Below are positions 16,933-29,750 of a DNA stretch of 41,105 bases, one piece after another. How positions within the stretch are numbered: the stretch's first letter is position 1; every line of letters starts with the position of its first letter. Under the pieces are notes generated by a model, which saw nothing but the letters and a program-made list of their open reading frames with translations, was not told the origin of the DNA and ran no database searches. The translations under genes were made by a program, and so were the position numbers. Source of the DNA: Oscillospiraceae bacterium (GTDB lineage: Bacteria > Bacillota > Clostridia > Oscillospirales > Oscillospiraceae); contig SVKQ01000007.1 of NCBI GenBank assembly GCA_015068325.1, positions 1 through 41,105 on the forward strand, in the 5' to 3' direction.

Positions 16933-16949
16933 ACAGGGCGCCGCCCTGT
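16933..16949 (+). other. Hairpin just upstream of the glmS ribozyme cleavage site
   Basis: ACAGGGC (16933-16939) pairs with GCCCTGT (16943-16949) across GCC. It ends six bases before the predicted cleavage site and follows AAAGGAGG at 16922-16929. It may insulate the ribozyme from upstream sequence. Confidence 0.55.
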
Positions 16950-16950
16950 C

Positions 16951-17100
16951 ATGAAGCGCCAGCGCCTGCCCGTGGGCAGGACGACGAGGAGGAGAGAGCA
17001 TCGAAGGTTTCGGCGGAAGCTCTCCCGCGCCGTCTCCGGGCGCGTGACACAGCTGACAAATATGCGGGCGACCGCAAAACAGAGGAGCTGTGACCGGAGG
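16951..17100 (+). ncRNA. glmS ribozyme/riboswitch
   Basis: The leader of glmS contains the ribozyme core. The cleavage-site segment AA|GCGCCAG has the scissile bond between 16955 and 16956. It is followed by the P2 stem GCCTGCCC/GGGCAGG, the conserved GACGACGAGGA segment, ATCGAAGGTTTCGGCGG and the closing CTCTCCCGC, in the order known for the family. The P3-P4 region continues to about 17100 (GTGACAC, then ACAGAGGAGCTGT). Glucosamine-6-phosphate acts as cofactor for self-cleavage, which lowers glmS mRNA. The 365 bases between the DUF421 gene and glmS hold this element, its leading hairpin and no protein gene that I can support. No convincing promoter was found upstream. Confidence 0.93.
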
Positions 17101-17164
17101 GAAAGAGGCAAATCTCTGCGCGTTTGTCCTTTTGATCTCATTTTCATCAGGAGGATATACAACT

Positions 17165-19000
<1,836 letters not shown>

Positions 19001-19148: not shown

Positions 19149-20081
19149 ATGCGCCAGAAACTGCTGCAACAACTGCACAGCGTGAGGACCATGTCCATCG
19201 TGGGCATGTGCAAGAACGCCGGCAAGACCACCGTGCTGAACTGGCTGCTGGCCCACAGCGGCCGGGAGCGCGTGCTGGGCCTGACCTCCATCGGGCGGGA
19301 CGGCGAGTCCACCGACGTGGTCACCGGCACGGAGAAGCCCAGCATCTTCGTTCCCTCCGGCACGCTGATCGCCACGGCAAGGGACATGCTGCGCCTGGGT
19401 GACATCACCCTGGAGGTGCTCATGACCACCGGCATCCCTACGCCGGTGGGCGAGGTGGTCATCGTCCGGGCCCGCAGCGACGGCTATGTGCAGCTGGCGG
19501 GACCCTCTATCACCACCCAGTTGAAAACGGTGTCCCGGCACTTCTTCGACCTGGGCGCCGACCAGTCCATCATCGACGGAGCGCTGGGCCGCAAGTCCCT
19601 GGGTGCCCGGGCCGTGGCGGAGGGCGTGATCCTCTGCACCGGCGCCAGCTACCACATGAGCATGGAGAAGGTGGTGGCCGATACGGTGAATATCTACCGC
19701 ATCATGAACATCCCCAGGGCGGAGACGCTGCCGGCCGAAACAGAGGGCACCCTGGCCGACGCGCTGAAGCAAAACGGCGAGGCGCTTATCAGCGGCGCCC
19801 TGACCGACTCCATGGTGGTGCCGCTGCTGCGCAGCGGCCTGCTGCGGGGCGGCCGCCTGGTGGTGAAGGATCCCAGCAAGGTGCTGCTGAGCACCGACAC
19901 GCTGGACAAGCTGGCCGCCCGCTCTGTGGCCCTGGAGACGGAGGAGGCCGCCCGCACGCTGTGCGTCACCATCAACCCGGTGTCGGCCTACGGCTGGCGC
20001 TTTGACAAGGACGCGTTCCTGCGCGCCATGAGCGAGGCGGTGGACGCCCCGGTGATCAACGTGAAGGAGGAGCTGTCATGA
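19149..20081 (+). CDS. kamB: Lysine 5,6-aminomutase reactivase subunit KamB (P-loop protein)
   Basis: A 310-residue protein with a Walker A motif GMCKNAGKTT at residues 19-28, indicating a P-loop nucleotide-binding protein. It shows no signal peptide or membrane segment. It overlaps the MutS-like kamC by 4 bases, and the two lie beside the lysine-fermentation genes. This is the layout of KamB and KamC, which are described as the reactivating factor that removes damaged cobalamin from lysine 5,6-aminomutase. The assignment rests on this context plus my recall of the family; the protein itself has few diagnostic motifs beyond the P-loop. AAAGGAG six bases upstream supports the ATG. Unlike the other lysine genes it is not behind the lysine riboswitch. 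Confidence 0.82.
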   Translation: MRQKLLQQLHSVRTMSIVGMCKNAGKTTVLNWLLAHSGRERVLGLTSIGRDGESTDVVTGTEKPSIFVPSGTLIATARDMLRLGDITLEVLMTTGIPTPVGEVVIVRARSDGYVQLAGPSITTQLKTVSRHFFDLGADQSIIDGALGRKSLGARAVAEGVILCTGASYHMSMEKVVADTVNIYRIMNIPRAETLPAETEGTLADALKQNGEALISGALTDSMVVPLLRSGLLRGGRLVVKDPSKVLLSTDTLDKLAARSVALETEEAARTLCVTINPVSAYGWRFDKDAFLRAMSEAVDAPVINVKEELS

Positions 20082-21538
20082 TTTCCGTCAGCTTTGACGA
20101 GAGAGTGAAGATCGGGCTGCAGTACGTGCTGGAGAGCCTTCACGGCTGCTGTCCTTTCGGCCAGGAGCGGATCCGCCACCTGCGGTTCTACGCCCCGTCG
20201 GAGCGGGAGGCGCTGGAGGAGGAGCTGCGCAACGTGGAGCGCGCCGCCGCCGCGTCAGAGACGCTGAAAGACGAGTACGACAAGATCATGGTCCTCCTGT
20301 GCCAGATGAAGGATATCCGCACGTCCCTGCGCCGCTGCCAGGCGGGGGAGTGCCCGGATCACGTGGAGCTCTTTGAGATCAAGGGCTACCTCCAGCGGCT
20401 GGACGGCCTGCTGCCCCTCTTTGCGCAGGTGCGCGACACCGCCGGCCTCACCGGCATGGCCTTCCACGACCCGATCCCGGCGCTCCGGATACTGGACCCG
20501 GAGAACACCCGCTCCCGGGGCTTCTATATCCCCGACGGCGCCACGCCGCGGCTCCATGAGATCCGACAGGCCAAAAAGCAGGTGGAGGAGCAGCTCTACA
20601 AGGCCCTCACCGACGCGGAGAAGGACGACCTGCGCATGAAGCGCACCCGCATCTGCGCCGAGGAGGACAGCGAGGAGATGAAGGTCCGCCGTGCCATGGG
20701 CGCCGCCCTGGCCCCCATGGTGGACGACCTGCTCTCCGACGCCGACACCGCCGGCCGGCTGGACTTCCTGATTCAGAAGGCGCTGTTCGCCGTGCGCTAC
20801 GGCGGCGTCCGCCCGGAGCTGACCGACACCGCGCTGGAGCTGGAGGACATGGTGAACCCGGAGCTGGTGGACCTGTTGGCGGAGAAAGGCCGTGCCTTCG
20901 TGCCGGTCACCATCGCACTGGACCGGGGCGCCGCGGTGATCACCGGCGCCAACATGGGCGGCAAGAGCGTGGCCATGAAGACGCTGGCGCTGAACGCCCT
21001 GCTGCTGCAGGCGGGCTTCCTGCCCTGCGCCCGGCGGGCCCGCATGCCCCTGTTCCACTGCATCAAAATGCTCTTTGACGACCTGCAGTCCATCCAGTCG
21101 GGCCTCAGCGGCTTCGGCTCGGAGATTGTGGAGTTCCAGCGGGCGTTGGACGAGGTGGAGCAGGGCTACTCCCTGTTCCTGCTGGACGAGTTCGCCCGAG
21201 GCACCAACCCCGACGAGGGCGCCGTCATCGTCCAGGCGGTGACGCGGTATCTCAACGACGTCAACGCCCTGTCGGTGCTGACCACCCACTACGACAAGGT
21301 GGCCGAGCACGCCCGCATCCACTACCAGATCATCGGCCTGCGGGATGTGGACCCCGAGCAGATCCGCGGCGAGCTGGCCGCCACCGCCGAGGACGGCGTG
21401 GCCGTCATCGCCCGCCACATGAACTACGGCCTCTACCGGGTGGAGGGCAAGGCCGACTGCCCGCGGGACGCCCTGAATATCTGCCGCATGCTGTCGCTGA
21501 AGCCGGAGATCCTGCAGCGGATCGAGGAGGCTTATTGA
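20078..21538 (+). CDS. kamC: Lysine 5,6-aminomutase reactivase ATPase KamC (MutS-like)
   Basis: A 486-residue ATPase of the MutS/ABC type. Walker A is GANMGGKS (290-297), the signature region is SGLSGFGSEI (341-350), Walker B is LFLLDEFARGTNP (Asp370-Glu371) and the H-loop is LTTHYD. It is much shorter than MutS and lacks the mismatch-recognition and clamp domains; a helical core of about 280 residues precedes the ATPase. In lysine-fermenting bacteria this MutS relative is KamC, thought to work with KamB to exchange inactive cobalamin in lysine 5,6-aminomutase. The ATGA overlap with kamB implies coupled translation and a complex. It is followed by a terminator, not by kal. Confidence 0.88.
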   Translation: MISVSFDERVKIGLQYVLESLHGCCPFGQERIRHLRFYAPSEREALEEELRNVERAAAASETLKDEYDKIMVLLCQMKDIRTSLRRCQAGECPDHVELFEIKGYLQRLDGLLPLFAQVRDTAGLTGMAFHDPIPALRILDPENTRSRGFYIPDGATPRLHEIRQAKKQVEEQLYKALTDAEKDDLRMKRTRICAEEDSEEMKVRRAMGAALAPMVDDLLSDADTAGRLDFLIQKALFAVRYGGVRPELTDTALELEDMVNPELVDLLAEKGRAFVPVTIALDRGAAVITGANMGGKSVAMKTLALNALLLQAGFLPCARRARMPLFHCIKMLFDDLQSIQSGLSGFGSEIVEFQRALDEVEQGYSLFLLDEFARGTNPDEGAVIVQAVTRYLNDVNALSVLTTHYDKVAEHARIHYQIIGLRDVDPEQIRGELAATAEDGVAVIARHMNYGLYRVEGKADCPRDALNICRMLSLKPEILQRIEEAY

Positions 21539-21607: not shown

Positions 21608-21635
21608 TTGACAAAATGACGGAAAAGCGTATAAT
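21608..21635 (+). promoter_or_regulatory. Promoter of the lysine-fermentation operon
   Basis: Consensus TTGACA (21608-21613), 16-base spacer, consensus TATAAT (21630-21635). Transcription would start near 21643, about 18 bases before the lysine aptamer. Confidence 0.92.
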
Positions 21636-21660
21636 TTGAAGTACAGAATTTCATATAATA

Positions 21661-21833
21661 GTCAATAGAGGCGCGGAGCGCAGGGTACTTGTCCGATCGA
21701 GCGGGGCACTCGGTGAAGTCGGGCAGGGAAGGGGCGTTCCGCCGAAAGGACGGAGAAGGCCCCGGCTCCGCCTTGGTAGCGCTGTGCAAGCGGCGTTACT
21801 GTCATGTTTTCATAACATGGAGCGCTATTGGTC
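21661..21833 (+). promoter_or_regulatory. Lysine riboswitch (L box) aptamer
   Basis: The conserved lysine-aptamer blocks appear in order: AATAGAGGCGCG opening P1-P2, AGGGTACT, the block AGGGAAGGGG then GCCGAAAGG (21725-21749), GGCCCCGG, TTGGTAGCGCTGTGC, the P5 hairpin CATGTT-TTCAT-AACATG (21803-21819) and GGAGCGCTATTGG closing P1. P1 is CAATAG (21663-21668) with CTATTG (21825-21830). The downstream genes degrade lysine, so the ligand fits. The whole 433-base gap between kamC and kal holds a terminator, promoter, this aptamer, its expression platform and a second hairpin; no protein gene is seen in it. Confidence 0.95.
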
Positions 21834-21864
21834 AACGACCTTGACCGACGGCGCTCTATTTTTT
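21820..21864 (+). terminator. Riboswitch-controlled terminator overlapping aptamer stem P1
   Basis: GAGCGC (21820-21825) pairs with GCGCTC (21851-21856), enclosing GGTCAA (21830-21835) and TTGACC (21841-21846), followed by TATTTTTT (T6 at 21859-21864). Its 5' strand is the joint before P1 and the first base of the P1 3' strand. Lysine-stabilised P1 should therefore compete with the terminator, predicting transcription ON with lysine. A caveat is that the P1 5' strand AATAGAG is also complementary to CTCTATT in the terminator tail, so the polarity needs testing. Confidence 0.75.
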
Positions 21865-21897
21865 GTGTAAAATTTTGTAAATTTTCGTGAAAAAGGA

Positions 21898-21922
21898 GTG
21901 CGGCAGCGGCCGGACTTTTTTT
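21898..21922 (+). terminator. Second, weaker terminator-like hairpin in the kal leader
   Basis: GTGCGG (21898-21903) pairs with CCGGAC (21910-21915) apart from one G-G mismatch, with a 6-base loop, followed by T7 (21916-21922). It lies 33 bases after the riboswitch terminator and 50 bases before kal. Confidence 0.4.
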
Positions 21923-21971
21923 GAGATCCTGTGACACATTTTTCCAAAATTTGTGAAGGAGGAAAAAACTT

Positions 21972-22370
21972 ATGGAAAAGATGACATCCCTGATCCGTCT
22001 GCGGATGAGCGCGAAGGACGCTCACTACGGCGGAAACCTGGTGGACGGCGCCCACATGGTCCACCTGTTCGGCGACGTGGCTACGGAGCTGCTCATCCTC
22101 TGCGACGGCGATGAGGGCCTGTTCTGCGCCTATGACAACATCGAGTTCCTGGCCCCTGTCTATGCCGGCGACTACATCGAGGCCTACGGCGAGATCGAGA
22201 AGGTCGGCAACACCTCCCGCACCATGAAGTTCGAGGCCCGCAAGGTCATCGCCACCCGCCCCGACATCAGCGCCTCCGCTGCCGACGTGCTGCCCGAGCC
22301 CGTGGTGGTCTGCCGCGCCCACGGCACCTGCGTCACCCCGAAGGACTGCCAGCGCACCACGCGCAAGTGA
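21972..22370 (+). CDS. kal: 3-aminobutyryl-CoA ammonia-lyase
   Basis: Removes ammonia from L-3-aminobutyryl-CoA to give crotonyl-CoA, the step that links lysine breakdown to butyrate formation. The 132-residue hot-dog-fold protein has [19 protein letters not shown] at the N-terminus, where the fold's active-site loop lies, and the [17 protein letters not shown] strand typical of hot-dog enzymes. The length is normal for Kal. GAAGGAGG lies 10 bases before ATG. It is the first gene behind the lysine riboswitch and is followed by kce after 16 bases. Confidence 0.93.
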
Positions 22371-22386: not shown

Positions 22387-23214
22387 ATGGAAAAGCTGAT
22401 CATTACCGCCGCCATCTGCGGCGCTGAGGTCACCAAGGAGAACAACCCCGCCGTCCCCTACACCGTGGAGGAAATGGTCCGCGAGGCCAAGGCCGCCTAT
22501 GACGCCGGCGCCGCCGTGATCCACGTCCACGTCCGCGAGGACGACGGCACTCCCACCCAGGACCGCGAGCGCTTCCGCGTGGTGATGGATGCCATCCGCG
22601 CCAAGCTGCCCGACGTCATCATGATCCCCTCCACCGGCGGCGCCACCGGCATGACTCCGGAGGAGCGCCTGCAGCCCACCGAGCTCTATCCCGAGATGGC
22701 CACCCTGGACTGCGGCACCTGCAACTTCGGCGACGACGTGTTTGAGAACACCATGCCCACCATGCGCGCCTTCGGCAAACGCATGATCGAGAACGGCATC
22801 AAGCCCGAGTACGAGTGCTTCGAGATCGGCCACCTGGACACCATTCTTACCATGGCCCGCAAGGGTCAGGTGCCCGGCGAGCCCATGCAGTTCAACTTTG
22901 TGCTGGGCGTGGCCGGCTGCACCCCCGCCACCGCGGAGAACCTGGCCTTCCTGGTGAACAAGATCCCCGCCGGCTCCACCTGGACCGTCACCGGCGTGGG
23001 CCGCAGCGCCTGGACCATGGCCGCCGTGGGCATCGCCATGGGCGGCAACGTCCGCGTGGGCTTTGAGGACAACGTCTATCTGGGCAGAGGCCAGAAGGCC
23101 GCCTCCAACGGCGAGCTGGTGGCCAAGGTGGTGCGTCTGGCCAAGGAGCTGGGCCGCGAGATCGCCACCCCCGCCGAGGCCCGCGAGATCCTGGGCCTCA
23201 AGCCTCTGAACTGA
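22387..23214 (+). CDS. kce: 3-keto-5-aminohexanoate cleavage enzyme
   Basis: Condenses 3-keto-5-aminohexanoate with acetyl-CoA to give acetoacetate and 3-aminobutyryl-CoA. The 275-residue TIM-barrel protein belongs to the BKACE family (DUF849). The zinc-binding HVHVRE (His46, His48) and GFEDN (Glu227) are present, as are PSTGGATG and GVGRSAWTMAA. AGAGGAGAAG precedes ATG. It sits between kal and kdd, in the order of the fermentation pathway clusters first described in fusobacteria and clostridia. Confidence 0.95.
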   Translation: MEKLIITAAICGAEVTKENNPAVPYTVEEMVREAKAAYDAGAAVIHVHVREDDGTPTQDRERFRVVMDAIRAKLPDVIMIPSTGGATGMTPEERLQPTELYPEMATLDCGTCNFGDDVFENTMPTMRAFGKRMIENGIKPEYECFEIGHLDTILTMARKGQVPGEPMQFNFVLGVAGCTPATAENLAFLVNKIPAGSTWTVTGVGRSAWTMAAVGIAMGGNVRVGFEDNVYLGRGQKAASNGELVAKVVRLAKELGREIATPAEAREILGLKPLN

Positions 23215-23296: not shown

Positions 23297-24349
23297 ATGG
23301 CTGAGCTGAAAGGCAACAAGTACGGCACCCACCGCGTTATTGAGCCCAAGGGCGTTCTGACCCAGGCTGCGTGGAAGATCGACAACGACATGAGCAAGGT
23401 CTACTCCAACGAGATCGTCTGCGACGTCATCTCCCTGAACGTGGACTCTGCGTCCTTCACCCAGATCTCTGAAGCCTGCGGCGGCGACGAGCAGAAGATC
23501 GGCGAGATGATCCTGGGCATCGTGGCTGAGCGCGGCAAGCAGCAGAACCCCGTCACCGGCTCCGGCGGCATGTTCATCGGCACCGTGGCCCACATCGGCG
23601 AGGACCTGCTGGCCAAGCCCGGTTTCGACCTGAAGGTGGGCGACAAGATCGCCTCCCTGGTGTCCCTGTCCATGACCCCGCTGCGCATCGACAAGATCAA
23701 GGCCATCCACAAGGAGATCGACCGCGTGGATATCGAGGGTAAGGCCATCCTGTTCGAGTCCGCCATCTATGCCAAGCTGCCCGACGACATGTCCGAGCCT
23801 CTGGCCCTGGCCGCTCTGGACGTGGCCGGCGCTCCCGCCCAGGCCCGCAAGCTGCCCAAGGAGGGCGACAGCGTCCTGATCCTGGGCGCCAACGGCAAGT
23901 CCGGCGTGCTGTGCGGCTGGGAAGCTCTGAAGAAGGTCGGCCCCAACGGCAAGGTCGTGGGCGTCGTCCGCAACCCCAAGCAGGTCCCCGCTCTGATCGA
24001 GCTGGGCGTGTACACCGACGTCATCGTGGCCGACTGCACCAAGCCCACCGAGGTGCTGGAGGCCTCCCTGGCTGCCAACGGCGGCAAGGAGTATGACATA
24101 TCCATCTGCTGCGTGAACATCGAGTCCTGCGAGATGTCCGCCATCCTGCCCGTCCGCGACGACGGCCTGGTCTACTTCTTCTCCATGGCCACCTCCTTCA
24201 CCAAGGCCGCCCTGGGCGCCGAGGGTGTCGGCAAGGACGTCACCATGATCGTGGGCAACGGCTACACCAAGAACCACGCCGAGATCACCCTGAACGTGCT
24301 GCGTGAGAATCCCAAGCTGCGCAAGCTGTTCGACGAGAAGTACTGCTGA
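23297..24349 (+). CDS. kdd: L-erythro-3,5-diaminohexanoate dehydrogenase
   Basis: Oxidatively deaminates 3,5-diaminohexanoate to 3-keto-5-aminohexanoate with NAD(P). The 350-residue protein has an N-terminal substrate domain (KYGTHRVIEPKGVLTQAAW) and a Rossmann domain with LILGANGKSGVLCGWEA near residue 195. It is rich in Lys/Asp/Glu with no membrane segment. TTAGGAGG is 8 bases upstream of ATG. The 82-base gap after kce has no terminator. Its place between kce and kamA, together with its sequence, supports the call. Confidence 0.94.
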   Translation: MAELKGNKYGTHRVIEPKGVLTQAAWKIDNDMSKVYSNEIVCDVISLNVDSASFTQISEACGGDEQKIGEMILGIVAERGKQQNPVTGSGGMFIGTVAHIGEDLLAKPGFDLKVGDKIASLVSLSMTPLRIDKIKAIHKEIDRVDIEGKAILFESAIYAKLPDDMSEPLALAALDVAGAPAQARKLPKEGDSVLILGANGKSGVLCGWEALKKVGPNGKVVGVVRNPKQVPALIELGVYTDVIVADCTKPTEVLEASLAANGGKEYDISICCVNIESCEMSAILPVRDDGLVYFFSMATSFTKAALGAEGVGKDVTMIVGNGYTKNHAEITLNVLRENPKLRKLFDEKYC

Positions 24350-24460: not shown

Positions 24461-25711
24461 ATGAAAACCCGCAACGGTCTGTTTGCCGATGTTCCCGAGG
24501 AGCTGTGGAACGACTGGCACTGGCAGGTCGCCAACCGCGCTGAGACGGTGGAGGACCTGAAGAAGTACATGACCCTGACCGCCGACGAGGAAGAGGGCGT
24601 CCGCAAGACGCTGGGCAAGCTGCGTATGGCCGTCACGCCCTACTACCTGTCCCTCATCGACCTGGACGACCCCTTTGATCCCATCCGCAAGATGGCCATC
24701 CCCCGCGCCGAGGAGCTGGAGTACGCCGACTATGAGGACGCCGATCCCCTGCACGAGGACACCGACTCTCCCACCCCCGGCCTGACCCACCGCTATCCCG
24801 ACCGCGTGCTGCTGCTGATCACCGATCAGTGCTCCATGTACTGCCGCCACTGCACCCGCCGCCGCTTCGCCGGCCAGAATGACTGCGAGGTGCCCATGCA
24901 GCAGATCGAGAAATGCATCGAGTATGTGGCCAACCACCCCGAGGTCCGCGACGTGCTGCTCTCCGGCGGCGACGCCCTGATGGTATCTGACGAGGTGCTG
25001 GAGCACATCATCAGCCGCCTGCGCGCCATCCCCCACGTGGAGATCGTCCGCCTGGGCTCCCGCACCCCCGTGGTGTGCCCCCAGCGTATCACCCCCGAGC
25101 TGTGCGCCATGCTGCGCAAGTATCATCCCATCTGGCTCAACACCCACTTCAATACCCCCAAAGAGTTTACCCCCGAGGCCAAGAAGGCCTGCGCCATGCT
25201 GGCTGACGCCGGCATCCCCCTGGGCAACCAGTCCGTGCTGCTGGCCGGCGTGAACGACTGCAGCCACGTGATGATGGAGCTGGTCCACGGCCTGGTGCAG
25301 ATGCGGGTGCGCCCCTACTACATCTACGCCTGCGATCCCTCCCTGGGGCTGAGCCACTTCCGCACCCCCGTGTCCAAGGGCATCGAGATCATGGAGGCCC
25401 TGCGGGGCCACACCTCCGGCTATTGCATCCCCACCTTCGTGGTGGACGCGCCGGGCGGCGGCGGCAAGACCCCGGTCATGCCCAACTACCTGATCTCCCA
25501 GACCCCGCGCAAGGTCATTCTGCGCAACTTCGAGGGCGTCATCACCTCCTACACCGAGCCCGAGCACTATGTCCAGAACTGCCACTGCGACGTCTGCACC
25601 GGCAAGAAGAAGGTGGAGAAGACCGGCGTGGCCTGGGTGGCCGAGGGTACGCCTCAGCGCTATCTGGAGCCCACCAAGCTGCTGCGCAACGAGCGCCACG
25701 TGAAGCATTGA
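24461..25711 (+). CDS. kamA: Lysine 2,3-aminomutase
   Basis: A radical-SAM and PLP enzyme that converts L-lysine to L-beta-lysine, the first step of the pathway. The 416 residues contain CSMYCRHC, a CxxxCxxC cluster motif (Cys124, Cys128, Cys131) for the [4Fe-4S] centre, the LSGGDALM loop, and IPTFVVDAPGGGGKTPVMP near the PLP site. A C-terminal cysteine pair NCHCDVC matches the zinc-binding tail of the clostridial enzyme. The long N-terminal helix begins after GLFADVPEELWNDWHWQ. GGGAGG precedes ATG. It lies between two strong intercistronic hairpins, within the riboswitch operon. Confidence 0.98.
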   Translation: MKTRNGLFADVPEELWNDWHWQVANRAETVEDLKKYMTLTADEEEGVRKTLGKLRMAVTPYYLSLIDLDDPFDPIRKMAIPRAEELEYADYEDADPLHEDTDSPTPGLTHRYPDRVLLLITDQCSMYCRHCTRRRFAGQNDCEVPMQQIEKCIEYVANHPEVRDVLLSGGDALMVSDEVLEHIISRLRAIPHVEIVRLGSRTPVVCPQRITPELCAMLRKYHPIWLNTHFNTPKEFTPEAKKACAMLADAGIPLGNQSVLLAGVNDCSHVMMELVHGLVQMRVRPYYIYACDPSLGLSHFRTPVSKGIEIMEALRGHTSGYCIPTFVVDAPGGGGKTPVMPNYLISQTPRKVILRNFEGVITSYTEPEHYVQNCHCDVCTGKKKVEKTGVAWVAEGTPQRYLEPTKLLRNERHVKH

Positions 25712-25814: not shown

Positions 25815-27374
25815 ATGGAAAGCAAACTCGGCCTGAATTTTGCCCTGGTCGACCAGGCCCGCGCCTCCGCCGCCCGCGTGGCGGCCGACACGCAGCGCTT
25901 CATCGACCAGCACACCACCGTCACGGTGGAGCGCGCCGTCTGCCGTCTGCTGGGAATTGACGGCGTCAATGAGATGGACGTTCCCATGCCCAACGTGTTG
26001 GTGGACAACCTGATGGAGAACTCCCTGCTGCCGCTGGGCGCCGCCTGGAACATCGGCAACGCCATCCTGGAGACCGGCAAGGATCCCCAGGGTGTGGCGG
26101 AGGCCGTGGACCGCGGTGAGCTGGATCTGTCCAAGCTGCCCGCCCACAGCGACAGCGACATCCGTGCGGCCATCAAGCCCTATGTGGACCGCACCATCGA
26201 GCGTATCAACAACAACGTGGCCGACCGCAACAGGTATCTCGGCGAGTTCGGCGACAAGCAGGGCCCCTACCTGTATATCATCGTGGCCACCGGCAATATC
26301 TATGAGGATATCATCCAGGCCAAGGCCGGCGCCAAGCAGGGCGCCGACATCATCGCCGTCATCCGCACCACCGGCCAGTCCCTGCTGGACTATGTGCCCT
26401 ATGGCGCCACCACCGAGGGCTTCGGCGGCACCTACGCCACCCAGGAGAACTTCCGCCTGATGCGCGCCGCGCTGGACGAGGTGGGCGAGGAGCAGCACCG
26501 GTATATCCGCCTGTGCAACTACTGCTCCGGCCTGTGCATGCCTGAGATCGCCGCCATGGGCGCTCTGGAGCGCCTGGACGTGATGCTCAACGACGCGCTG
26601 TACGGCATTTTGTTCCGTGACATCAACATGCAGCGCACCATCGTGGACCAGTTCTTCTCCCGCGTTATCAACGGTTACACCGGCGTCATCATCAACACCG
26701 GTGAGGACAACTATCTGACCACCGACGACGCCATCACCTCCGCTCACACCGTGCTGGCCTCCCAGTTCCTGAACGAGGCCTTCGCCAAGGAAGCCGGCAT
26801 GCGCGAGGAGCAGATGGGCCTCGGCCACGCTTTCGAGATGGATCCCTCCGTGGAGAACACCTTCCTCTATGAGCTGGCCCAGGCGCAGATGGCCCGCGAG
26901 ATCTTCCCCAAGGCGCCGCTGAAGTATATGCCGCCCACCAAGTTCATGACCGGCAACATCTTCCGCGGTCACATCCAGGATGCGCTGTTCAACATGGTCA
27001 CCATCCTGACCGGGCAGAAGCTGCACCTGCTGGGCATGATGACCGAGGCCATCCATACCCCGTTCATGTCCGACCGCGCCCTGTCCATCGAAAACGCCCA
27101 GTACATCTTCCGCACCATGAAGGACCTGGGCAGCGAGCTGACCTATAAGGAGAACGGCATCATCCGCAACCGCGCCAACGAGGTGCTGACCAAGGCCACC
27201 GACCTGCTGGCCGAGATCGAGAAGCTGGGCCTGTTCACCACCATCGAGAAGGGCATCTTCGCCGACGTGAAGCGCCCCAAGGACGGCGGTAAGGGCCTCA
27301 ACGGCGTCGTGGTGAAGGATGAGAAGCACTTCAATCCCTTTGTGGAAGTGATGAAAGGTAAGGTGGCAGGATAA
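25815..27374 (+). CDS. kamD: Lysine 5,6-aminomutase alpha subunit
   Basis: The large subunit of the adenosylcobalamin- and PLP-dependent enzyme that moves the terminal amino group of beta-lysine to give 3,5-diaminohexanoate. It has 519 residues, the normal length, and the TIM-barrel sequence pattern of the family (QGADIIAVIRTTGQSLLDYV, EGFGGTYATQENFRLMRAAL, CNYCSGLCMPEIAAMGALER). The start is supported by AAGAGG 8-9 bases upstream. Its stop overlaps the kamE start by one base, so both subunits are made together. Its activity is expected to depend on the KamBC reactivase encoded upstream. Confidence 0.98.
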   Translation: MESKLGLNFALVDQARASAARVAADTQRFIDQHTTVTVERAVCRLLGIDGVNEMDVPMPNVLVDNLMENSLLPLGAAWNIGNAILETGKDPQGVAEAVDRGELDLSKLPAHSDSDIRAAIKPYVDRTIERINNNVADRNRYLGEFGDKQGPYLYIIVATGNIYEDIIQAKAGAKQGADIIAVIRTTGQSLLDYVPYGATTEGFGGTYATQENFRLMRAALDEVGEEQHRYIRLCNYCSGLCMPEIAAMGALERLDVMLNDALYGILFRDINMQRTIVDQFFSRVINGYTGVIINTGEDNYLTTDDAITSAHTVLASQFLNEAFAKEAGMREEQMGLGHAFEMDPSVENTFLYELAQAQMAREIFPKAPLKYMPPTKFMTGNIFRGHIQDALFNMVTILTGQKLHLLGMMTEAIHTPFMSDRALSIENAQYIFRTMKDLGSELTYKENGIIRNRANEVLTKATDLLAEIEKLGLFTTIEKGIFADVKRPKDGGKGLNGVVVKDEKHFNPFVEVMKGKVAG

Positions 27375-28162
27375 TGAGCAGCGGACTGTACAACACCCAT
27401 AAGATCGATTTCGACACCACGCTGGACCTGACCCGCCTGAAGCCCTACGGCGACACCATGAACGACGGCAAGGTGCAGACCAGCTTCACCCTGCCCGTCA
27501 AGGACGACGCCCGCGGCGAGGAGGCCGCCCGCCAGATCGCCAAGAAGATGGGTCTGGAGGAGCCCAACGTGGCCTATCACGCCCCGCTGGACAAGGAGTT
27601 CACCTTCTACGTGGTCTACGGCAGCTGCGTGCACTCCGTCAACTATGAGGATATCCACGTCATCACCGTCGAGTCCGAGGTGATGAGCATGGAGGAGACC
27701 AACGACTACATCCGCGAGCACATTGGCCGCAAGGTGGTCATGGTGGGCGCCTCCACCGGCACCGACGCCCACACCGTGGGCATTGACGCCATCATGAACC
27801 GCAAGGGCTTTGCCGGTCACTACGGCGTGGAGCGCTACGAGATGGTGGAGGCCTACAACCTGGGCTCCCAGGTGCCCAACGAGGACTTTATCAAGAAGGC
27901 CGTGGAGCTGCATGCCGACGCGCTGCTGGTGTCCCAGACGGTCACCCAGAAGGATATCCACATCCAGAACCTGACCAATCTCATCGAGCTGCTGGAGGCC
28001 GAGGGCCTGCGCGACAAGTTCGTGGTGGTCTGCGGCGGACCCCGCATCACCCACGAGCTGGCCAAGGAGCTGGGCTATGACGCCGGCTTCGGCGCCGGCA
28101 CCTACGGCGACGACGTGGCCAGCTTCGTGGTCACCGAGATGGTCAAGCGCGGCATGAAGTAA
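27374..28162 (+). CDS. kamE: Lysine 5,6-aminomutase beta subunit
   Basis: The cobalamin-binding subunit, 262 residues. The base-off cobalamin motif DxHxxG is DAHTVG at 131-136. Lys144, in NRKGFAGHYG, corresponds to the lysine that anchors PLP in the Clostridium sticklandii enzyme. The rest follows the Rossmann-like B12 domain (VVMVGASTGTD, ADALLVSQTVTQKD, FVVVCGGPRI). The N-terminal 100 residues form the dimerisation domain. It ends the riboswitch operon and is followed by a stem-loop and a new promoter. Confidence 0.98.
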   Translation: MSSGLYNTHKIDFDTTLDLTRLKPYGDTMNDGKVQTSFTLPVKDDARGEEAARQIAKKMGLEEPNVAYHAPLDKEFTFYVVYGSCVHSVNYEDIHVITVESEVMSMEETNDYIREHIGRKVVMVGASTGTDAHTVGIDAIMNRKGFAGHYGVERYEMVEAYNLGSQVPNEDFIKKAVELHADALLVSQTVTQKDIHIQNLTNLIELLEAEGLRDKFVVVCGGPRITHELAKELGYDAGFGAGTYGDDVASFVVTEMVKRGMK

Positions 28163-28389: not shown

Positions 28390-29082
28390 ATGGCAAAGAA
28401 ACCTGTTCTCACTGCCGCCGAGGCAGCGAAAATGATCCCCGACGGCGCCACGATCATGTGCGGCGGCTTCCTGGCCTGCGGCCAGGCCCGCACCATCGTC
28501 AAGGAGCTGGTCAAGCTGGGCACCAAGGATCTGACCCTCATCGCCAATGATATGGCTCGCCAGACGGGCCCCATGGGCGAGGAGTTCTTCGGCATCGCCG
28601 AGCTGATCCATAACCACCAGGTCAAGCGCATCATCGCCACCCACGTGGGCATGACCCCCGAAGTGGGCCAGCAGTCCACCGAGGGCACGCTGGAGGTCAA
28701 TCTGATCCCCCAGGGCTCCCTGGCTGAGTGCATCCGCGCCGGCGGCGCCGGTCTGGGCGGCGTGTTGACCCCTGTGGGCGTCGACACCCTGATCGAGGAC
28801 AGCCCCCTGTGCATGGGCAAGCAGCGCATCAATGGCAAGGACTATCTGCTGATGAAGCCCATCCACGCCGACTTTGCCCTGCTGGGCACCTATAAATGCG
28901 ATGAGTACGGCAACTGCTGGTACAAGGGCACCATGCGCAACTTCAACGTTGTCATGGCCACCGCCGCCGACACCGTCATCGCCGAGTGTGAGTATCTGGT
29001 CCCCGTGGGCGAGATCGAGCCCGAGAACATCCACACCTACGGCATGTGCGTGAACTACATCGTGGAAGGAGAGAGAAAGTAA
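28390..29082 (+). CDS. atoD: CoA-transferase subunit alpha (acetoacetate/butyrate type)
   Basis: One half of a family I CoA-transferase. In lysine fermenters this enzyme moves CoA from butyryl-CoA (or acetyl-CoA) to the acetoacetate made by Kce, releasing butyrate. The 230 residues show the glycine-rich loop MCGGFLACGQARTIVKELV, the ANDMARQTGPMG segment and GVLTPVGVDTLIED, as in AtoD/ScoA proteins. AAGGAGG precedes ATG. The stop overlaps the atoA start by one base. The exact donor and acceptor are inferred from the neighbours, not from the sequence alone. Confidence 0.93.
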   Translation: MAKKPVLTAAEAAKMIPDGATIMCGGFLACGQARTIVKELVKLGTKDLTLIANDMARQTGPMGEEFFGIAELIHNHQVKRIIATHVGMTPEVGQQSTEGTLEVNLIPQGSLAECIRAGGAGLGGVLTPVGVDTLIEDSPLCMGKQRINGKDYLLMKPIHADFALLGTYKCDEYGNCWYKGTMRNFNVVMATAADTVIAECEYLVPVGEIEPENIHTYGMCVNYIVEGERK

Positions 29083-29750
29083 TGGATAAGTCTGAAATCA
29101 AGGCCTTTATCGCCAGACGCTGCGCCAAGGAGCTGAAGGACGGCGATGTCGTCAACCTGGGTATCGGCCTGCCCACCATGATCCCCAGCTATCTGCCCGA
29201 GGGCGTTGAGCTGATCATCCATGCCGAGCTGGGCATCGTGTCCGCCGGCGCCACCCCCAAAGAGGGCGATGCCAACTTTGATCCCTACCACGTGATCGAC
29301 GCCGGCGGCGGCGTGGCCTCCGTGGCGTACGGCGGTGGCTTCATCGATTCCGCCACCAACTTCGGCCTGATCCGCGGCGGCCATGTGGACGCCTGCTTCC
29401 TGGGCGCCCTGGAGGTCGATGCCCAGGGCAACCTGGCCAACTGGATCATCCCCGGCAAGCGTATGCCCGGCATGGGCGGTGCCATGGATCTGTGCGTCGG
29501 CGCCAAGAACTGCATCGTCTGCATGGAGCACACCGCCAAGGGCAACCCCAAGATCTTCGAGAAGTGCCGTCTGCCCCTGACCGCCTCCCACTGCGTCAAC
29601 AAGATCATCACCGAGATGTGCGTGTTCGAGGTCAATGAGGACGGTCTGCTGATGACCGAGATCAACCCCGAGTTCACCATCGACGAGGTGCGTGCCGCTA
29701 CCGCCGCCCACTTCGAGGTGGCCGTGAACCTGAAGAGCATGCTCCACTGA
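29082..29750 (+). CDS. atoA: CoA-transferase subunit beta (acetoacetate/butyrate type)
   Basis: The catalytic half of the CoA-transferase, 222 residues. The active-site glutamate is Glu49 in HAELGIVSAG, the conserved ExG motif of family I beta subunits, preceded by NLGIGLPTMIPSYLP. ATG 29082 overlaps the atoD stop (TAATG), preferred to an upstream in-frame GTG. AGGAGAGAGAAAG serves as ribosome binding site. With kal, hbd and bcd nearby it completes the route from lysine to butyrate. Confidence 0.95.
   Translation: MDKSEIKAFIARRCAKELKDGDVVNLGIGLPTMIPSYLPEGVELIIHAELGIVSAGATPKEGDANFDPYHVIDAGGGVASVAYGGGFIDSATNFGLIRGGHVDACFLGALEVDAQGNLANWIIPGKRMPGMGGAMDLCVGAKNCIVCMEHTAKGNPKIFEKCRLPLTASHCVNKIITEMCVFEVNEDGLLMTEINPEFTIDEVRAATAAHFEVAVNLKSMLH

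Follow-up and report, generated by a model that had tools for sequence, protein, structure and literature searches.

A predicted lysine-ON riboswitch, with a terminator built over the P1 helix, in front of a lysine-fermentation operon of an Oscillospiraceae bacterium

The leader of a lysine-fermentation operon in an Oscillospiraceae bacterium (assembly GCA_015068325.1, contig SVKQ01000007.1) is very probably a transcriptional riboswitch that is turned on by lysine. The window analysed here is the whole stretch of 41,105 nucleotides, read on its forward strand. We infer lysine binding, termination and polarity from the predicted structure of the leader, in which the first terminator and the closing helix of the aptamer (P1) compete for the same bases. 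A first terminator that covers the P1 3' strand separates the lysine riboswitches linked to kal from other lysine riboswitches. As far as the available text of the published accounts goes, lysine-ON control of lysine breakdown has so far been proposed mainly from the gene behind the riboswitch.

The aptamer and the operon behind it

A lysine riboswitch aptamer (RF00168) was found by cmscan at 21658-21835 on the forward strand, matching the model over its full length with 91.1 bits (E 7.1e-23), far above the gathering score of 30 bits. The first-pass annotation had recognized a lysine aptamer within 21661..21864, and the covariance match bears it out. P1 is formed by 21663-21668 with 21825-21830. 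The core motifs AGAGGNGC, GCCGAA (or a near form) and TGTCA occur in all 50 kal-linked leaders compared below, the window included, although this count is not independent of the way the leaders were collected, which was by likeness to the RF00168 model. These sequences support the prediction of a lysine riboswitch with the core of the five-way junction. Upstream, a sigma-70-type promoter TTGACA-16-TATAAT (21608..21635, forward strand) agrees with the consensus in 12/12 bases, a match to the consensus alone that says nothing of function. No other lysine riboswitch was found in the genome, which is 95% complete.

The genes behind the riboswitch were named by NCBIfam models, with every match above the curated cut-off, and all are on the forward strand. 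They encode 3-aminobutyryl-CoA ammonia lyase (kal, 21972..22370; NF052388, 193.4 bits, cut-off 160), the 3-keto-5-aminohexanoate cleavage enzyme (kce, 22387..23214; NF052387, 422.7 bits, cut-off 382), L-erythro-3,5-diaminohexanoate dehydrogenase (kdd, 23297..24349; NF052381, 264 bits, cut-off 200), lysine 2,3-aminomutase (kamA, 24461..25711; TIGR03820, 597.5 bits, cut-off 525.4), and the alpha (kamD, 25815..27374; NF052384, 903.6 bits, cut-off 600) and beta (kamE, 27374..28162; NF052385, 408.4 bits, cut-off 280) subunits of lysine 5,6-aminomutase. The earlier reading of this run, from kal to kamE, as lysine-consuming genes behind a lysine riboswitch was thus correct. CoA transferase subunits A and B follow at 28390..29750 (TIGR02429 and TIGR02428, over cut-off) and, judging by order and strand, probably form the end of the operon. 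The genes for reactivation of the 5,6-aminomutase, kamB and kamC, are at 19149-21538 (KamC, 20078-21538, was over its NCBIfam cut-off). Their position ahead of the promoter puts them outside riboswitch control; in genome G509, by contrast, kamB and kamC come after kdd, behind the riboswitches.

Terminator T1 and the P1 3' strand

The terminator hairpin T1 is located at 21818..21858 on the forward strand. Its 5' arm (21818-21835) is made of J5/1 and the P1 3' strand and its 3' arm is 21841-21858; 21818-21826 pairs with 21850-21858, and 21828-21835 with 21841-21848. A U-rich tract (21859-21864) follows directly. T1 folds at -25.2 kcal/mol (z -8.84), and none of 200 shuffles was as good. It had been noticed before that the terminator shares sequence with P1. 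That overlap stands, but it is not confined to base 21825 as first described: T1 takes five of the six bases of the P1 3' strand together with the whole J5/1 segment, and P1 and T1 are therefore mutually exclusive. A canonical OFF switch has a terminator that is free to form once P1 has formed; here T1 is not free, and only the hairpin T2, described below, could form.

As P1 and T1 exclude each other, readthrough should become more likely when lysine binds. In its absence, 21818-21835 of the nascent RNA (J5/1 and the P1 3' strand) would pair with 21841-21858, and T1 would halt transcription ahead of kal. Lysine bound to the finished aptamer would lock P1 and J5/1 and block T1, and the fermentation operon would be transcribed. 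In ligand-free folding the T1 fold (-98.2 kcal/mol) is favoured by 12 kcal/mol over the P1 fold (-86.2 kcal/mol), so that switching must be kinetic; such a preference would be expected if lysine traps the aptamer before the T1 3' arm has been transcribed. The downstream hairpin T2 is a counterpoint, since it could end transcripts even with lysine bound.

The arrangement was compared between 50 distinct kal-linked leaders (58 before leaders with identical 3' parts were merged, many of them from one genus) and 86 control lysine riboswitches, which are the 90 best-scoring loci listed less four that are kal-linked and are thus not a random sample; some of the controls had also fed the custom profile. 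A first terminator that runs over the P1 3' strand was predicted for 48 of the 50 kal-linked leaders and for 10 of the 86 controls, and with a threshold of -15 kcal/mol or better the counts are 48/50 and 0/86. An ON geometry had been proposed for the window before, with a covariance-model search and an alignment of the P1/terminator overlap in relatives named as a check; the exclusion of P1 by T1 computed in the window is borne out by its retention in these 48 leaders. The P1-covering terminators of the kal-linked leaders have a median of -24.7 kcal/mol (range -35.2 to -17.3). When the tails of the 50 leaders were shuffled, once per leader and keeping single-base composition only, no P1-covering first terminator was obtained (0/50). 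A duplex measure agreed, with 33/34 kal-linked leaders against 15/86 controls at -12 or better. Two kal-linked leaders, L232b and L235, were not scored as overlapping, and L235 did overlap in another scan. P1 has four contiguous pairs in L073, L234, L231a, L231b and L232a and two in L235.

The bases themselves were followed through 49 leaders (L232b, without a detected U tract, was left out) as triplets of P1 5' strand, P1 3' strand and terminator, the terminator partner being taken from the predicted hairpin, which biases the count towards pairing. At one P1 position the triplets were C-G-C in 34 leaders, G-U-A in three, G-C-G in two and A-U-A in two; at the neighbouring position they were A-U-G in 25, A-U-A in 12, G-C-G in three and U-A-U in one. 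The sequences thus support the view that P1 3' bases at the inner positions vary together with both of their partners, in the P1 5' strand and in the terminator. P1 is paired in 43/49 and 42/49 leaders at these two positions, and in 33/49 and 36/49 at the outer two.

Among the other 76 controls, the first terminator lay off the P1 3' strand in 63 and none was found in 13. A downstream frame was obtained, by a simple choice rule, for 84 of the 86 controls, and these frames belong mostly to transport and biosynthesis families. By Pfam they include family 3 binding proteins (23), Na+/H+ antiporters (16), pyridoxal-dependent decarboxylases (13; lysA by NCBIfam), DapB (7), semialdehyde dehydrogenase (5), PEP carboxykinase (4) and others. 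Seven of the 10 controls with a P1-covering first terminator belong to one family, f59. The f59 loci L202, L205, L206 and L221 have P1-overlapping but weaker terminators; the riboswitches of L202 and L205 precede PEP carboxykinase frames, an unexpected link of lysine to pckA. At two other f59 loci, L207 and L220, the protein encoded behind the lysine riboswitch weakly matches class-II glutamine amidotransferases.

The window does hold a pairing that could reverse the polarity, as the first-pass annotation had pointed out. AATAGAG (21664-21670), in the P1 5' strand, could pair with CTCTATT (21854-21860) as an antiterminator when lysine is absent, and lysine would then cause termination. All seven base pairs are present, and a fold that contains them reaches -95.0 kcal/mol, compared with -98.2 kcal/mol when the terminator forms. 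The pairing is complete in the window only (1/50 leaders), and six of seven pairs are found in 8/50. Lysine could not stabilize both P1 and T1, because they share bases; an OFF switch of this kind would also require that the 3' strand of the terminator is still free after it has been made, and a substrate that represses its own degradation pathway would make little sense. The pairing itself is present in the window, whereas the opposite polarity drawn from it was rejected because the pairing is not conserved among the 50 leaders; we consider an OFF switch very improbable. An aptamer that has changed its ligand and senses another compound, for example a fermentation intermediate such as beta-lysine, appears just as remote. 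It would suit the products of the pathway, as the genes of the operon make beta-lysine and diaminohexanoate, but the core motifs are kept throughout the 50 leaders and the window matches the lysine model over its full length. A lysine-ON switch at T1 is the reading that we retain.

A second terminator-like hairpin and repeated aptamer ends

Between T1 and kal lies a second terminator-like hairpin with a U run, T2 (21891..21922, forward strand; -16.3 kcal/mol, z -3.92), which is absent from the first-pass annotation. A terminator of -13 or better appeared in 5/150 shuffles of 21861-21971 that keep dinucleotides approximately only. It had been stated that no separate antiterminator is needed; this is incomplete, since T2 still precedes kal. 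T2 poses the question of whether a single aptamer could control both terminators. A candidate antiterminator hairpin, AT2 (21851..21901, forward strand), sets the T1 3' arm and its U tract against the region of the T2 5' arm. It has 23 pairs and folds at -13.7 kcal/mol (z -3.82; 3/200 shuffles as good), whereas the wider fold of 21836-21903 has a z of only -1.30.

Two competing readings of T2 are both compatible with an ON switch at T1. One, possible although on the doubtful side, adds a relay to the switch: without lysine both T1 and T2 would form, and with lysine the freed 21851-21875 would pair with 21879-21901, a segment that includes the 5' arm of T2, and block T2. Lysine would then disarm both terminators, T2 through the released T1 3' arm. 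In the other, which we put at slightly under even chances, T2 acts independently of lysine, as a backup terminator or as a weak attenuator, and sets a ceiling on expression. Folding of 21658-21935 gave T1 and T2 when unconstrained and AT2 instead when P1 was enforced, and with the T1 5' arm omitted AT2 beats T2 in the window by 10 pairs to 0, both as a relay would have it. Second terminators were found by one rule in 8/50 kal-linked leaders, and the T1 3' arm pairs with the 5' arm of a half-made T2 (9-17 pairs) in 9/10 leaders examined. Once T2 is complete, however, it wins at equilibrium in 8/9 other leaders examined (all but L236). The pairing also shows little specificity in most leaders, as an uncoupled T2 would predict. 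Shuffled T2 arms are as good as the window's own in 19.7% of cases (0 to 10% in the other eight leaders tested), and foreign T1 arms are as good in 14/48 cases in the window and in 47/48 in both L084 and L109. Only 2/12 leaders (L094 and L236) have a cognate arm that is better than all foreign ones, and L231b comes near (1/48 as good). T2 is rare in the genus as well, being called among the genus leaders of the set only in the window and L262. An uncoupled T2 has difficulties of its own: a strong terminator of this kind would leave the operon mostly silent with or without lysine, and the T2 5' arm sits inside the AT2 hairpin. A general relay across lineages, tested with cognate and foreign arms, was not supported.

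In other lineages, parts of the aptamer are repeated downstream. A consensus search found a further copy of the aptamer 3' end (P5 3'/J5-1/P1 3') in 9/50 kal-linked leaders and 1/86 controls. Near-exact repeats of a leader's own 3' end (at least 11/13 bases) were found in 4/35 kal-linked leaders and 0/85 controls, with control L217 left out as too short and the anchor of L231a set by hand. The leaders with a second 3'-end copy are L068, L078, L084, L094, L109, L032, L036, L055 and L231; the copy begins 42-55 bases downstream of the CTA in the first, and several copies lie inside a second terminator-like hairpin. A repeated 3' end after T1 may serve as a relay or as a spare end for the aptamer, or it may be left over from a doubled riboswitch. 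The broader proposal, that one aptamer controls two serial terminators via the mutually exclusive helices P1-T1-AT2-T2 and that a repeated aptamer 3' end may do likewise elsewhere, is tentative and in our judgement unlikely.

In genomes G509 and G552 (L231:1313-1757, forward strand, and L232:14293-14704, reverse strand), the kdd gene of the lysine-fermentation operon is preceded by two lysine aptamers in tandem. Terminator-like hairpins overlap P1 of each aptamer; the one at the last G552 aptamer has a weak U tract and was unscored.

Known lysine riboswitches and the spread of the kal-linked type

In B. subtilis and E. coli, lysine riboswitches have been demonstrated to act as OFF switches (PMC11477304, text available in part). 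Compared with such OFF switches for biosynthetic and transport genes, the window's aptamer is the same, while the terminator lies off P1 or is missing in 76/86 of our controls. Catabolic lysine riboswitches, which the first-pass annotation mentioned as having been proposed, are indeed predicted in print (PMC5584792; PMC2258182; both available in part). The first of these accounts places lysine riboswitches before kal/kce in C. sticklandii, F. nucleatum (kal alone) and Thermoanaerobacter, acting positively; they resemble the window's in aptamer class, target genes and proposed positive control. Its available text gives no expression platform, whereas the terminator overlap is laid out here and compared over 50 leaders. 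Gene order in G451, a sigma-54-type regulator followed by an amino-acid-permease-like gene and kal, resembles that published for Thermoanaerobacter. The second account, citing Rodionov 2003, assigns ON logic to certain riboswitches for glycine, adenine and lysine, in which parts of the terminator are buried. This is the logic of the window, where ligand binding would hide part of the terminator, but the available passages detail no lysine example. To the extent that these two sources can be compared, the window switch joins a kind already predicted, and its platform is detailed beyond them.

Double lysine riboswitches have been described with 14 representatives (PMC9481103, in part), and those of G509 and G552 are likewise two lysine aptamers in a row. 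The latter precede kdd, whereas the available text gives no genes for the published doubles; the aptamer of the window is single. An engineered riboswitch turned on by lysine has been published, according to a title cited in PMC5584792. Among the matches listed from open-licence literature, available in part, neither an experiment on a naturally occurring lysine-ON riboswitch nor a relay of two terminators was recognized, and the available text of PMC9337991, PMC12452182 and PMC7160235 had no bearing on lysine-ON control of kal.

A kal gene over cut-off was present in 14/200 genomes of the family and in 78/398 genomes of the phylum, the window's genome included. Some of the riboswitch searches used stricter filters that lose weak matches. 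Within the family, cmscan found a lysine aptamer just upstream of 7/16 kal loci (15 kal over cut-off and one below), and in 6/80 further genomes of the phylum (77 kal over cut-off and three below) the kal operon was associated with a lysine riboswitch. This is adjacent to kal in G582, G229 and G270 and 3.9 kb upstream in G451; in G509 and G552 it is doubled and lies about 6 kb upstream. Among 80 named kal loci, 54 were searched by cmscan and 22 of these carry an aptamer, including the 17 loci most like the query; the remaining 26, searched with the custom profile only, gave one match, on the opposite strand (L131). In the window's genus, 27/32 genomes have a lysine riboswitch match, and 25 of the 29 matches precede kal. 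None of the other four, with no kal within 1.5 kb downstream, has its first terminator over P1; their terminators are separate and begin 27 to 58 bases past P1. The comparison thus offers a simple structural rule, a collection of 50 leaders for testing, and one genus whose lysine riboswitches mostly serve kal. The P1/terminator overlap was found under four family labels (f1, f40, f74 and f130).

Another regulatory RNA is present in the window: a glmS ribozyme (RF00234, 76.2 bits) at 16944-17102, ahead of glmS at 17090-19000.
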